Source: Actinospica robiniae DSM 44927 (lineage in GTDB: Bacteria > Actinomycetota > Actinomycetes > Streptomycetales > Catenulisporaceae). From it: a stretch of DNA of 64,000 bases. The position numbers and the translations under genes are program-made. Shown one piece after another: positions 43,579 to 49,304 of the stretch. The stretch lies in contig NZ_KI632511.1 in the NCBI RefSeq assembly GCF_000504285.1, positions 9,158,154 through 9,222,153 of the forward strand, given 5' to 3'. Every line of letters begins with the position of its first letter. Position 1 is the stretch's first letter. The notes under the pieces were generated by a model, which saw only the letters and a list, made by a program, of their open reading frames with translations, did not search any database and had not been told where the DNA came from.

Positions 43579-43712
43579 CACGCTAAGTATATGAATCGAC
43601 GATCCATCTTGGCGATATTCAGCCATAAACCACTCTGAAAGGCGCAAAAAGGGGATACTGCGCCGTTCGAGTGAGGCGGGCGGCGTCCGCCGGCGCGGGA
43701 CGCGCCGACCCG

Positions 43713-43738
43713 TCCGCTCACCCGAACGGGTGAGCGGA
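43713..43738 (-). terminator. Hairpin terminator of the TPR operon
   Basis: An 11-bp perfect stem (43713-43723 with 43728-43738) with loop GAAC lies 54 bp beyond the second TPR gene. Confidence 0.75.
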
Positions 43739-43791
43739 CAGGGCTCCGGCCGGGCTGTCGGCCGGGTGATCGTCGAGGTGGCGAGCGGCGG

Positions 43792-46700
43792 TCAGCCCAC
43801 CGGTGCGGGCGAGGGCGCGGGCGCCTCCGCCCCCGCCGTGCCGCGGGCCGCTCTCACCCGTCCGGCCGCACCCGGGGCCATCGCCGCGGCGTTGTCCCGC
43901 GCGGCGCTCGCGGGGCCCGGCAGGGCGCACGCCTCGGCCAGCTCGGCCAGTCCGGTGAACCGCGCCGCCGCCCCGGTCTTGTCGCCGAGGCCCGCCTGGA
44001 CGGTGGCCACCCAGCCGATCCCGGTCTCCAGCGCGGTCATCAGCTCCTCGCGCCACGGGTCCTCGGCGTTCGCGGCGTGCGCCTCGCGCAGCAGCTCGGC
44101 CAGGCTGTCGGTGCCCTCCGCCGCCTCCCGGTACGCGCCCGGCAGCAGCCGGCCCAGCGCGTCGTCCGGCGCCGGGTCCGGGTCGATCAGCAGCCGCACC
44201 TTGGACGCCTTGAGCTCGGCCAGCCGGGCCAGCTTGCGCCGGTCCGGGCTCGGCGCCGCGGCCGGCTCGGCGGACTCGCCCCGCTCGGCCGCGGCGGCCG
44301 CCCGGCGTGCGGCCAGCTCGCGCCGCTCGGCCAGCTCGGCCTCGATGATCCGCCCGATCCAGGCCGCCGCGTCGTCGATCAGCGCCAGCGCGCCCTTCGG
44401 GTCCCGGGACACGGTCAGCGCGGCCAGCCGCTCGAGCGCGCAGGCCCGCGGGTCGATCTCGTCGTCCTTCTCGGCCAGCCGGGCCGCCCAGGTGTAGTCG
44501 GCGATGGCCTGCTCGGGCAGCTCCAGCGCGGCGAAGGCCTCGCCGGCGTCGAAGTGGATCCAGCCGACGGTGACCTTGTTCCAGTCCGGCAGCTGCCCGT
44601 AGAGCCTCTTGAGCAGCTCGCGGGCCTGCTCGGACGCGCCGGTGCGGCGCAGGCTGACGATCTGCCCGGCGGTGGCCCGGCGCAGGAAGGCGCGGGCGGT
44701 GAGGCTGCCCCAGCCGTCGCCGATCTGGGCGACCGCGTCCGCGTACATCTCCAGCGCCACCGCGTGCCGCTCGGCCCGCCGGTGCACGTCGGCCAGCAGG
44801 ATCCTCGCGTACGCGGCCTCCTCGGCCCCCTCGCCCGCGGCGAGCACCGCGGCCTCGCGGGCGGCCTCGAGCAGCTCCTCGTCCCGGGCGCCGTCGCGCA
44901 CCTGACGGGCGATCGACTCGGCCCGCAGCAGGGCGATCGGGCCGGTCAGGTCGGCGTCGATGCCGGCGTTGAGCCGGGCCGCCTCGGCCGCCGCGGCCTC
45001 GGCCCGGGCGAAGCGGCCGTGCTGGAGCAGGTTCTGACCCCGCTTCAGCTCGGCGTCGGCCTGCTGCGGGAACTGCAGCGCGTCCCGATACGCGTCCCGG
45101 GCCTTGGCGTACCAGAAGTCCACCCGGTCCGCGGTCTCGGCCACGAAGTCCGGCGCCAGCCCGTACCGGCCGTAGAGCGCGCCGAGGTTCTGCCGCAGGA
45201 ACGCCCAGGCGCCGAGCATGTCCGCCCAGGGCGCGGCGTAGAGCTCGGTGGACAGGTACAGGTCCTTGACCGCGGTGAACTTCTCGTTCGTGGTCGGATT
45301 CTCGACCATGTGGTCCGGGCCGGCCGCCAGGGCCTTGATCTCGATGATCGAGTCCAGCCGGAAGTCGTTGACCAGCAGCAGCATCAGGTCGCCGTCGGTC
45401 AGCCGGCCGGCCGCGTGCCAGGTGCGGGCCCGGGCCACGATCTCGTCCCGCTCGGCCAGCGCAGTGGCCTGATCCCCGGTCAGGTACGCCGAGAGCGCCG
45501 CGATCATCCGGCTCACCAGGGCGTCGCCGGGCCGCTCGCACTGCTGGTAGATCCGCGCCTTCTCCAGCTCCAGAGTCCGGGCCGAGGCGAAGTCGTGCTC
45601 GCGCATCAGCACCGCGGCCCGGTAGCCGGTCAGCCGCGCCTGGTCGGCGAGCGAGCGCGGCGTGCCGAGCGCGGCCACCCGGGCCCAGGCCCCGTTCAGG
45701 TGCGGATGGTCGAGGTAGGCGAGCACCCGGGCCTCGGCCAGCAGCGCGTCCTGCGCGGTCCAGCCCTTCGGCAGGTCCTCCAAGTCCGGCGGCGCGGCCC
45801 AGGGCGCGGGCACCGGCGGGAGCGCCGACTCCCAGAACGCGTCGTCCTCCTCCTCGGCCGGCAGGTCGACCTTGTGCAGGGTCTCCTCGCGCCAGGAGGT
45901 CAGCCGCTCGGTGTAGCGCTCCCGGTCCGCCTCGTCCGCGCACCCGGCGGCATGCGCGGCCAGCCCCGCGTCCAGGCGCTCGCGCAGCTTGTCCGCCGTG
46001 GTCTCGGTGCGGTCGGGCAGCGTGATCGGCAGCTGGGCGTGGCCGCGCAGGCAGAGCAGGTGCAGGAACTGCAGCACCCGGCCGTGGTACCAGGCCACGT
46101 CGTCGTCGAGGGCGGCGTCGAGCAGCTCGACGTGGTCGTGCACGATCCGCAGGAACCCGGCCGCGTCCCGGACCCGGTTCGCGTAGATCATGTGCAGGTC
46201 CAGCGCCCGCCACTGCCCGCTCGCCCGCCGGATCAGCGGGTAGCCGGCCCGGTGGCAGCGCCGGGCCAGGGCCGGGCGGCCGAGCACGAGCGAGAGGAAG
46301 GCCAGCTCGGCGTACGCCTGGATCCGGTGGTCCTCCTCGCAGCGCTGGTCCGGCAGGTCCAGGATCCGCTGCCACAGCTCGGCCGCCCGGGCCCGGTTCT
46401 TGACCGGGCCCTGATACCACTGGGCGGCCACCATCGGGCCCATCGCGTCGCAGTGCGCCCCGGCGTCGCCCGGCTCCTCCACCAGCAGCTCGACCAGCCG
46501 GGTGGCCTCCTTGGGTTCGTCCCGGCGGCGGTGGAACCAGTACCGGGTCCGGTACGGGATGCGCATGCTGTAGCCGCCGTCGCGGTAGAACGCGTCCATC
46601 TCGTCGAGCCGGCGCACGATCTCCTCGGCCGGCACCGCCGGATCGAGGTCGAGCGCCGTGATCACCGGGGCGAAGGTGGTGCGCAGGTTGTAGCGCACCC

Positions 46701-46953
46701 GCGGCTCGATCTCGTCGGCGTGCTCGCGGTACAGCGACCAGGCGCGGTCGAAGAACTCGATCATCCGGGCCTTGTCATCGATCTCCATGTAGTCGTCGGA
46801 GATCCAGATCAGCAGTTTGCACTGGAGCGAGTAGTCCTCGCCCGCCTCGGCCTCGGCCGACAGCCGCAGGTGCCCCTCGATCCGCGCGGGGCCGTACGGC
46901 AGCTGGTCGAGCTCCTCGAACTCCGCCCTGATCCGCTCCGAGTCCATCGCCAT
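43792..46953 (-). CDS. Large TPR-like protein B of a two-gene operon, function unknown
   Basis: This 1053-residue cytoplasmic protein is almost entirely helical, with degenerate tetratricopeptide repeats throughout (for example LPEQAIADYTWAARLAEKDDE near 875). It begins MAMDSERIRAEFEELDQLPYG. A segment near 195-290 (AAELWQRILDLPDQRCEEDH onward, then RCHRAGYPLIRR and GHAQLPITLPD) matches in order a segment of the upstream protein, so the two are paralogues. It starts 5 bp after the upstream stop and is co-translated. No enzymatic domain is visible. It ends with an Ala-rich tail. A scaffold or regulatory role is only inferred from the repeats. Confidence 0.85.
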   Translation of the reverse strand: MAMDSERIRAEFEELDQLPYGPARIEGHLRLSAEAEAGEDYSLQCKLLIWISDDYMEIDDKARMIEFFDRAWSLYREHADEIEPRVRYNLRTTFAPVITALDLDPAVPAEEIVRRLDEMDAFYRDGGYSMRIPYRTRYWFHRRRDEPKEATRLVELLVEEPGDAGAHCDAMGPMVAAQWYQGPVKNRARAAELWQRILDLPDQRCEEDHRIQAYAELAFLSLVLGRPALARRCHRAGYPLIRRASGQWRALDLHMIYANRVRDAAGFLRIVHDHVELLDAALDDDVAWYHGRVLQFLHLLCLRGHAQLPITLPDRTETTADKLRERLDAGLAAHAAGCADEADRERYTERLTSWREETLHKVDLPAEEEDDAFWESALPPVPAPWAAPPDLEDLPKGWTAQDALLAEARVLAYLDHPHLNGAWARVAALGTPRSLADQARLTGYRAAVLMREHDFASARTLELEKARIYQQCERPGDALVSRMIAALSAYLTGDQATALAERDEIVARARTWHAAGRLTDGDLMLLLVNDFRLDSIIEIKALAAGPDHMVENPTTNEKFTAVKDLYLSTELYAAPWADMLGAWAFLRQNLGALYGRYGLAPDFVAETADRVDFWYAKARDAYRDALQFPQQADAELKRGQNLLQHGRFARAEAAAAEAARLNAGIDADLTGPIALLRAESIARQVRDGARDEELLEAAREAAVLAAGEGAEEAAYARILLADVHRRAERHAVALEMYADAVAQIGDGWGSLTARAFLRRATAGQIVSLRRTGASEQARELLKRLYGQLPDWNKVTVGWIHFDAGEAFAALELPEQAIADYTWAARLAEKDDEIDPRACALERLAALTVSRDPKGALALIDDAAAWIGRIIEAELAERRELAARRAAAAAERGESAEPAAAPSPDRRKLARLAELKASKVRLLIDPDPAPDDALGRLLPGAYREAAEGTDSLAELLREAHAANAEDPWREELMTALETGIGWVATVQAGLGDKTGAAARFTGLAELAEACALPGPASAARDNAAAMAPGAAGRVRAARGTAGAEAPAPSPAPVG

Positions 46954-46958
46954 GGCCG

Positions 46959-48947
46959 CTACCGCTCCTCTTCCCGCGCGAACCGGTCCGCCTGCTCCGT
47001 CAGCGTCTTGACCAGGTCCGCGAAGCCCTCCGGGGCCGCCGCCTCGAGCTCGGCCACCAGCTCGCGCAGCCGGCGCTCGGCCCGGCCGGTCGCGCCGTAC
47101 CGGGCGATCTCGATCCGGCCGAGCAGCAGCGCGCAGTCGGCGATCCGGCCGTAGAGCCCCAGCAGGTCCTCGGTGCCCTCGGCCTCGGCGCGGGCACGCG
47201 CCCCGGAGCCCAGCACCCGGCGCATGCCGCTCAGCGCCGCGGCGGCGTCCTGCTCCGCCAGCACCGGATCCGCCTCGGCGGTCAGCTCGGCGCGCTGGAA
47301 GTGGGTCTCGGCCAGCTCGAGCCGCAGCGCGTCGCGGCGGGAGACGTCCGGCTCGCCCTCGAGCCGGCGCACCAGCGCCGTGCCCGCCTCGTCCATCAGG
47401 TCCGTGCCGTCGTCGCGGCCGGCCCGGAACTCCAGCCAGGCCGCCGAACGCAGGCACCTGATCCGCACCAGCAGCCGCTCCGGGTCCTGCCCGGCCAGCC
47501 GCGCGGCGCGCAGGAAGGCGTCCGCGGCCGGCCCCGGCAGCTCGGCGTCGCGCAGCGCGTAGGCCGCGCCGACCGTCATCTCGAACAGGATCGTGTCGTC
47601 CGGCCAGTGCTCGAGCCGGGCGCGCAGCCGCTCGAGCACGGCCAGGCCCTCGTCCTCGGCGCCCAGCGCGAGCAGGGCCCTGATGTACTGCATCTGGTGC
47701 CGGGCCAGCGTCGCGCCGTACTCCTCCGGGTCCCAGAACGACTCGTCGTCGAGCTCGGCGAACGAACGCTGATACAGCCCGACCGAGGCCCGCCGGCGCC
47801 CGGTGAAGGCCAGCGCGTCGGCCGCGCGCAGCCGGGCCAGGGCCGCCTCGGCGCCGCGGTCCTCCGCGGTGTAGATCTCCGCGGCCTCCAGGGCCGGCGC
47901 GACCGCCTCGGCCTCCCGCCCGTCCAGCTCCCACAGCGCGGTGGCCAGGGTCAGCGCCGCCGGGCCGCGCAGCCGCGCGTCCACGCAGTCCATCACCGCC
48001 GCGCGGGCCAGGCGCACCGCCTGGTGCGAGTCGGACACCAGCCGGGAGAGGTTCATCTCCGCGCGGGCCGCGTACCAGGGCGCGCCGGCGGCCATCGACC
48101 GCTCGATCACCTGCTGCAGGGCCGGCTCGACCTCGTCCAGCTCGCCGGCCTGGAACAGCGTGTCGCTGAGTGCGTAGAGGTCCCCGGTGCCGGGGACCTC
48201 CAGATGTGCCGCGGCCGGTTCGGCGTACGGGGGAGCGGCGCCGGCCGGCTCGCGCAGCGTGCTGCGCACCGGCAGCGGCAGCCGGCCGAGCGCGGGCTGT
48301 CGCAGACGCCGGATGTGCAGCCGGGCGGTGTAGCCGGGGGCGACGCCCTCCTCGGCCTCGGCCCGGGCGATCCGGGCCGCGAGCGAGTCGAGCTCGGCGT
48401 CGACGAAGCCGCGCAGCACGCTGACCGTCAGCTCCTCGCCGCCCGGCACGTGCGCGCCCGGGGAGGGGGGCATCGGCACCGGCAGCTCGGCGTGCCCGAG
48501 CGCGGCCAGCCGGGCCAGCAGCACGCTCGCGCCGGTGAGGAACTCGGCCTGCGCGGCGATCCCGGGCGCCGGCTCGGTGAGCCAGTCGGCGTGCTCGGCC
48601 AGCAGCTCGAGGCCGCGGTGCTCGTTGCCGGTCAGCGCGCAGAACTCCAGGTGCTCGCCGATCGCGCCGCGGAAGGCGGGCTTGCGGCGGGCGAGGCGGT
48701 AGCCGTATTCGTGCGCGTGCACGGCCCGGTCGAGCTCGTCCCGGCGCAGCAGCACCAGCAGGCAGGCGCCGAGCACGCCCTGCGGCTGGTGGTCGCACAG
48801 CAGGTCGCCCTCGAGCACCGGCGCCCAGATCTCCAGCGCCCGTTCGTCCTGGCGCAACGCCGCCGCCTCGGCCCCTTCGGCATGCCGCGCGCACGCGGCG
48901 CAGTCCCGGCGGCGGCCCATCTGCCCGCCGAGCCAGCTCTCGTACAC
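46959..48947 (-). CDS. Large TPR-like protein A of a two-gene operon, function unknown
   Basis: This 662-residue helical repeat protein starts at GTG 48947 behind GGGAGGGA, and an 18-codon extension upstream has no ribosome site. Near the N-terminus it has RRRDCAACARHAEG and then LLCDHQPQ, a Cys-x-x-Cys plus Cys-x-His set that could bind zinc. ALEIWAPVLEGDLLCDHQ, HEYGYRLARRKPAFRGA and GHAELPVPMP correspond in order to segments of protein B. Repeats of TPR type follow to the end. No signal peptide or catalytic domain is seen. Confidence 0.85.
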   Translation of the reverse strand: MYESWLGGQMGRRRDCAACARHAEGAEAAALRQDERALEIWAPVLEGDLLCDHQPQGVLGACLLVLLRRDELDRAVHAHEYGYRLARRKPAFRGAIGEHLEFCALTGNEHRGLELLAEHADWLTEPAPGIAAQAEFLTGASVLLARLAALGHAELPVPMPPSPGAHVPGGEELTVSVLRGFVDAELDSLAARIARAEAEEGVAPGYTARLHIRRLRQPALGRLPLPVRSTLREPAGAAPPYAEPAAAHLEVPGTGDLYALSDTLFQAGELDEVEPALQQVIERSMAAGAPWYAARAEMNLSRLVSDSHQAVRLARAAVMDCVDARLRGPAALTLATALWELDGREAEAVAPALEAAEIYTAEDRGAEAALARLRAADALAFTGRRRASVGLYQRSFAELDDESFWDPEEYGATLARHQMQYIRALLALGAEDEGLAVLERLRARLEHWPDDTILFEMTVGAAYALRDAELPGPAADAFLRAARLAGQDPERLLVRIRCLRSAAWLEFRAGRDDGTDLMDEAGTALVRRLEGEPDVSRRDALRLELAETHFQRAELTAEADPVLAEQDAAAALSGMRRVLGSGARARAEAEGTEDLLGLYGRIADCALLLGRIEIARYGATGRAERRLRELVAELEAAAPEGFADLVKTLTEQADRFAREEER

Positions 48948-49304
48948 TGCCGATCCCTCCCGGTCCGCCGCTTCTCCCCGCGGTCGCGCGCCCAGCCACA
49001 ACTTACCTTACGAGGCCTGGCTGATCGCGGGCAGGCGGATCATGCAGGTGTGGCCGAAGCGTGTCAGAGGCCTGGCGCGCGGGGCGCGACGCGCCGGCAA
49101 CTTCCCAGGGTGGCGGGCGCATGGTGCGGCCGGGTGCGGGAACCTGTGCTCAGGTCTCCCGGACGGGCCCGTCCGGCGCGGCCCGCCCGCGGCCGCGCAA
49201 CTGGACAAAGGCCCCGGCGCGTCGGTTAGATTCGGGGGAAGGCTCAGCATGCGACGGGGCGTGACGCCGGCCAGATATGTCAAGAGGGACGAGGCGGTAG
49301 AGGC
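48948..49304. other. Divergent promoter region, TPR operon and PBP
   Basis: This is 357 bp. TTAGAT (49224-49229) is a possible -10 for the PBP gene. An inverted CCGGACGGGCCCGTCCGG palindrome lies near 49158-49175. No gene is recognised; an 88-codon frame here is not supported by codon bias. Confidence 0.5.

Follow-up and report, generated by a model that had tools for sequence, protein, structure and literature searches.

Two divergent TPR proteins of Actinospica belong to an actinobacterial family usually encoded directly behind HSP90

Two adjoining genes and their family

The window analysed here is a 64-kb stretch of the 9.92-Mb genome of Actinospica robiniae DSM 44927. On its minus strand, to which the coordinates of all features given below refer, lie two genes, A (46959..48947, GTG start) and B (43792..46953, ATG start), which encode proteins of 662 and 1053 residues and are set 5 bp apart, from the stop of A to the start of B (46954..46958). 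A preliminary description of this DNA had given both open reading frames in the same way and had regarded them as an uncharacterised operon of two mutually related helical repeat proteins. They are not an isolated pair: profile comparison places both, as divergent members, in a family of tetratricopeptide repeat (TPR) proteins, here called T, whose genes in the other actinobacteria examined almost always come directly after an HSP90-family gene (NCBIfam NF010683).

An alignment of A, B and 11 T proteins outlines a family of about 1000 residues, which starts with an N-domain of ca. 153 residues and continues with a Cys module, marked by CxxC and usually by C-x-E-E-P, FCALTGN, and FDARNGT after it, before ending in a TPR tail. 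B is a divergent full-length homologue, in which residues 1–153 are the N-domain (46495..46953), residues 154–365 a degenerate Cys module (45859..46494) that has kept C168 and C205 and lost the second and fourth Cys, and residues 400–1036 a TPR-like helical superhelix (43846..45756). Gene A codes for the Cys module (residues 2–232, with C16, C19, C51, and C103; 48252..48944) and a TPR-like superhelix (residues 249–662; 46962..48203). In Hhalign comparisons with the T profile, B aligned with probability 100 and E 8.5e-43 over 818 columns starting at residue 1, and A with probability 100 and E 1.3e-61 over 620 columns beginning at T column 154, lacking the N-domain as well as a middle block of some 190–200 columns. 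Compared directly, A and B show a modest resemblance in their C-terminal part (BLASTP E 5e-4; profile–profile 80.6%, E 1.3e-5), and since both align to one family a resemblance by chance is excluded. The short segments matched by eye in the preliminary description (ALEIWAPVL with AAELWQRIL, a Cys turn, GYRLARR with GYPLIRR, and GHAELPVPMP with GHAQLPITLP) fall into the same alignment columns, and the module is colinear in the two proteins, which supports the view of a homologous module embedded in different surroundings. Their supposed paralogy stands as membership of a shared family, but not as a sister relationship: in a tree of the module A lies among T proteins (support 95) and B (support 100) sits on a long branch, which makes its placement unreliable. 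Recent tandem duplication finds no support in this tree. That A is a truncated or frameshifted full-length T can be rejected, as no match to the T N-domain or to HSP90 lies upstream in the window and the start codon is common to three species.

Profile searches did not place the pair in any well-characterised family, neither protein having a match in Pfam (TPR families included), NCBIfam, or PADLOC up to E 1 or a sequence match in the PDB up to E 0.1. The T relatives match Pfam TPR families, mostly below the cut-off, and four T proteins gave no PADLOC match up to E 0.1. The helical-repeat fold claimed for both proteins was recovered in the AlphaFold2 models (mean pLDDT 88.2 and pTM 0.63 for A; 85.9 and 0.62 for B). 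The predicted module helices correspond one to one, those of A at 17–30, 34–45, 56–68, 72–86, 90–105, 109–118, 130–149, 175–199, and 205–214 with those of B at 171–181, 187–199, 207–223, 227–241, 248–260, 264–273, 284–302, 320–336, and 341–356, a correspondence not independent of the homology, as both input alignments included T proteins. Residues 252–615 of the A model align with the TPR domain of LGN (Z 27.8, root mean square deviation 3.7, 325 residues aligned), and the VIA-align rows covered mainly residues 249–662. This similarity is that of a predicted stacked helix-pair TPR superhelix, and a shared fold shows no function. Foldseek matches of B were large TPR scaffolds with low TM-scores, which were low for the A model too.

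The conserved cysteines of the family are those of the CxxC, a third, which most T proteins have within C-x-E-E-P, and in the usual case one more, within FCALTGN. They are conserved across A and T, with the set intact in A, and B retains the first and third alone. Of the CxxC and CxH suggested as a possible zinc-binding set in A, the CxxC is conserved, but the CxH is not conserved in relatives. The Cys module may form a structural hub, possibly held by zinc.

The neighbourhood of T

With A as query on its own genome, two further genes were found, for TPR-type proteins of 982 and 652 residues, each directly behind an HSP90-family gene, so that this genome holds two HSP90–T pairs elsewhere. Four T-coupled HSP90s, including those two, score 792–825 bits with NF010683 (cut-off 455). 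We surveyed 41 genomes (the same one and 40 relatives), searching T with A and HSP90 with NF010683, where matches below the cut-off were left out of the count, and took as paired any T within 3 kb behind HSP90 on the same strand. The A search gave 55 rows, of which 52 were counted; the remaining three (G024, G038, and G028) are C-terminal fragments of T genes that other rows already represent. These 52 T places are spread over 33 genomes and the 47 HSP90 places over 32; T stands behind 47/47 HSP90 genes, and HSP90 before 47/52 T places. The five T places without HSP90 are A in three Actinospica, one in G012, where T starts 85 bases from a contig end, and one in G019, where an open T of 1070 codons (L120:6802-11441) lies beside an IS110-type transposase gene in a genome with no HSP90 match at E 1e-20.

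Among the named loci, which are the best 80 of at least 536 relatives in genome_contigs, an HSP90 match of more than 200 bits precedes T in 75. Of the five exceptions, two are Actinospica A–B loci, one is that of Streptomyces tailanensis (L119), where a fragment of HSP90 is present, and two are from Nocardia, namely N. alni (L050) and N. albiluteola (L097). The gap between the HSP90 stop and the T start was measured to whichever start codon lay closest, a rule that favours small gaps, and ranged from −8 to +12 nt in all but one of 75 measured loci, the exception having 109 nt; L062 (no start by this rule) and the two Nocardia loci (no HSP90) were left out, and the gap in S. tailanensis was measured from its 120-residue fragment. 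One independent example is an annotated Streptomyces globosus plasmid, on which the HSP90 and T genes adjoin. One T protein is annotated as a hypothetical protein (WP_114059341.1).

Across the phylum (149 genomes), the four genomes with a full-length T are also the four with HSP90, and three more have weak matches to the TPR part; across the class (296 genomes), HSP90 was found in 36. Outside the order T lies behind 16/17 HSP90 loci, as seen in the DNA behind HSP90 matches, a procedure that T genes without HSP90 would escape. At the 17th locus (L134:1593-4369, in a genome of another family) the gene behind a weak, divergent HSP90 encodes a different, short protein, which matches a Pfam TPR family but was missed by the T profile; this is possibly a second kind of HSP90–TPR pair. 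The HSP90 consensus, made from 26 of 103 sequences, retains REL.QN..DA, D.G.GL, GQFGIGLL, and PTASRE, which we take to be the ATP-site and catalytic stretches. Part of the loci have a third small gene before HSP90–T (L024:6217-7116, L027:10696-11565, and L005:11665-12366), the L005 copy with a sub-threshold DUF4034 match and the L027 copy with no Pfam match.

In PHROGs, phrog_34905 (368 positions, unknown function) matches A at residues 11–120 (E 8.1e-15) and none matches B. A has no match in the phages collection. Five records of the phages collection match a Nocardia T, and the two inspected look bacterial. One of these is a scaffold with a GC content of 0.77 and an HSP90–T pair (L142:1915-6488), under the unverified label Bacteriophage sp. 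The other is a low-GC contig labelled as a Listeria phage, also unverified, on which a gene (L143:55-930) matches the T profile at E 1.6e-39 with an N-domain and Cys module; the contig end truncates this gene at its start, and it stops after the module, the TPR tail being absent. No HSP90 lies on this 5.1-kb contig, and the gene next to the module gene looks SMI1/KNR4-like by eye. A scan of viral_contigs found no match. Among plasmids A matches four records, of which the two inspected are the S. globosus plasmid and an Actinomyces oris replicon. An origin of A and B from phages or plasmids was set aside on these grounds.

The A–B pair across Actinospica

The pair was found in 3/41 genomes, all of them Actinospica (the window species, A. 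durhamensis, and A. acidithermotolerans; 3/3 of the genus). Full-length copies of high identity occur in these three genomes only, with identities in the two other species of 89 and 67% for A and 86 and 54% for B. The locus is syntenic, with flanking genes alike, in all three. The conserved coupling of A and B that had been proposed is, in the genomes searched, limited to this one genus. Similarity among the three orthologues of A starts at the GTG, and a purine-rich stretch, GGGAGGGA, read from the sequence, precedes it in all of them (48948..48961 in the window), both of which support this start.

The absence of a neighbouring HSP90, the missing N-domain of A, and the poor conservation of B might suggest relics of a decaying HSP90–T locus, and the transposase gene beside the HSP90-less T of G019 would fit such a course. 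We consider decay highly improbable here: both reading frames are intact in the three species, the models of A and B are confident and helical, no remnant of HSP90 or of a T N-domain is left upstream of A in the window, and between the window species and A. durhamensis, the closest pair, A and B have ratios of nonsynonymous to synonymous substitution rates (dN/dS) of 0.26 and 0.35.

Behind B lies a gene for a SpoIIE-type phosphatase (Pfam). Between them, 3′ of B, is a perfect 12-bp inverted repeat with a 4-nt loop (43712..43739), a probable terminator and the single match to its pattern within the window; the surrounding 71 nt have a folding energy of −49.3 kcal/mol (z −4.62). The repeat lacks a T-run, and a simple terminator scan reports nothing there. 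The phosphatase was left out as a third operon gene, its candidate starts being 144–210 nt behind B with this strong hairpin between. Other flanking genes, read by eye, are those of a cellulase, a LacI regulator, a penicillin-binding protein (divergent from A–B), an FAH-type hydrolase, and a TrmH-type methyltransferase.

Possible roles and comparison with known systems

Most likely, A–B would derive from a chaperone-linked TPR adaptor, as an offshoot with two subunits and no HSP90. More specifically, T may be a dedicated adaptor or co-chaperone-like partner of HSP90, whose TPR tail would hold a client or complex. In Actinospica two T-type genes would have become a two-gene unit, in which A retained the Cys module without the N-domain, while B kept the full architecture and lost most of the conserved residues; the two might work jointly as a scaffold, serving in trans the HSP90s from other loci of the genome, or another chaperone. 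We put the probability of this specific reading at roughly one half.

Several observations weigh against it. The links between T and HSP90 and between A and B are both given by gene order alone. No HSP90 match is present in the window, in the orthologous stretches L018 and L019, or in the orthologous loci L040 and L041. We defined a conserved set of 42 module and 18 N-domain positions, the module positions being those that no fewer than 95% of 38 T proteins coupled to HSP90 have in common. B has lost 30/42 of the module residues (12 kept) and 11/18 in the N-domain (7/18 kept), a loss that argues for a changed function. Against A. acidithermotolerans the dN/dS of the window genes is 0.62 for A and 0.80 for B (0.57–0.81 over the comparisons with that species), which indicates that both evolve fast. 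The T proteins of N. alni and N. albiluteola keep 41/42 conserved module residues though their loci lack HSP90, and neither genome has an NF010683 match over the cut-off, so that T is not strictly tied to HSP90. On the Actinomyces oris replicon a T-like gene of 1011 residues (L145:3764-8481) lies behind two YbjN-type genes, one over and one below the Pfam cut-off, and no HSP90 is annotated in the 12-kb stretch around it; together with the Nocardia cases this indicates that T can persist with other neighbours. Finally, NF010683 also scored over its cut-off in 2/14 control genomes (Deinobacterium chartae and Corynebacterium glutamicum), by profile score only.

The lack of HSP90 at the locus and its orthologous stretches and the loss of most conserved residues in B would agree as well with a pair that has been fully repurposed, that is, a heteromeric TPR scaffold unconnected with HSP90 and serving a genus-specific process such as cell wall, signalling, or cellulose use, as the flanks shared by the three species (SpoIIE-type phosphatase and, by eye, penicillin-binding protein, LacI regulator, and cellulase) might hint. 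We regard this as a real possibility, at somewhat less than even odds. However, A retains 33/42 conserved module positions (29/42 in the A of A. acidithermotolerans) despite an overall module identity to T of 37–46%, and the flanks look separately transcribed, with the penicillin-binding protein gene divergent and the hairpin between B and the phosphatase.

Returning to T itself, the Nocardia loci show a further association. The row AAA ATPase, VWA_CoxE, HSP90, and T was found in 12/13 Nocardia HSP90–T loci, several of which are strains of one species (L043, L046, L047, L052, L054, L056, L064, L067, L068, L074, L089, and L108), and the 13th (L078) is cut by a contig end. The ATPase, which scores above the cut-off for Pfam AAA and AAA_5, is MoxR-like by our reading. 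In N. alni and N. albiluteola T comes straight after the ATPase and VWA genes. Such a row might place T, A, and B in a system for cell protection or conflict, with the chaperone pair setting a threshold in the way proposed for MoxR–vWA ternary systems; the systems of Kaur et al. (PMC7159879) are built around MoxR–vWA pairs. We find this explanation improbable. MoxR–CoxE pairs are common outside conflict systems, PADLOC gave no match for A, B, or the four T proteins, and for two HSP90s the matches to PADLOC models are confined to the N-terminal ATPase part. The main text of two papers from the group of Kaur et al. (PMC7159879 and PMC8195603) does not mention HSP90.

The TPR genes that follow almost all examined HSP90 genes of one actinobacterial lineage offer a direct and testable candidate partner, and the Actinospica pair and the two Nocardia cases offer natural experiments in which the partner persists and the chaperone is not beside it. 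To our knowledge, bacterial Hsp90 has been described without TPR co-chaperones. We found no description of an HSP90–TPR gene pair in bacteria in the literature searched, which covers few subscription papers and preprints.

Compared with the T family, A and B share common ancestry, over nearly the whole length in B and over the module and TPR tail in A, and a similar fold and size; they differ in forming a two-gene unit without an HSP90 neighbour, in the N-domain and middle block missing from A, and in the conserved residues mostly missing from B. The phrog_34905 family holds the module in common with A, and so does the L143 gene, but without a TPR tail. The eukaryotic TPR co-chaperones of Hsp90 (such as Hop and FKBP51) are likewise helical TPR proteins linked to Hsp90. 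They differ in that A and B have no sequence match in the PDB and the link in actinobacteria is one of gene order; moreover, 0/103 actinobacterial HSP90s end in EEVD, which makes a eukaryote-like clamp unlikely. An actinobacterial Hsp90 lineage with its own dedicated TPR co-chaperone, of an evolutionary origin separate from the eukaryotic EEVD-clamp type, with A and B as module-keeping and diverged full-length partners of an HSP90 in trans or of another chaperone, is a tentative and rather doubtful extension of the favoured reading. HtpG (NF003555) is a relative within the HSP90 superfamily, and the four T-coupled HSP90s score 150–182 bits with its model, below the HtpG cut-off of 371.

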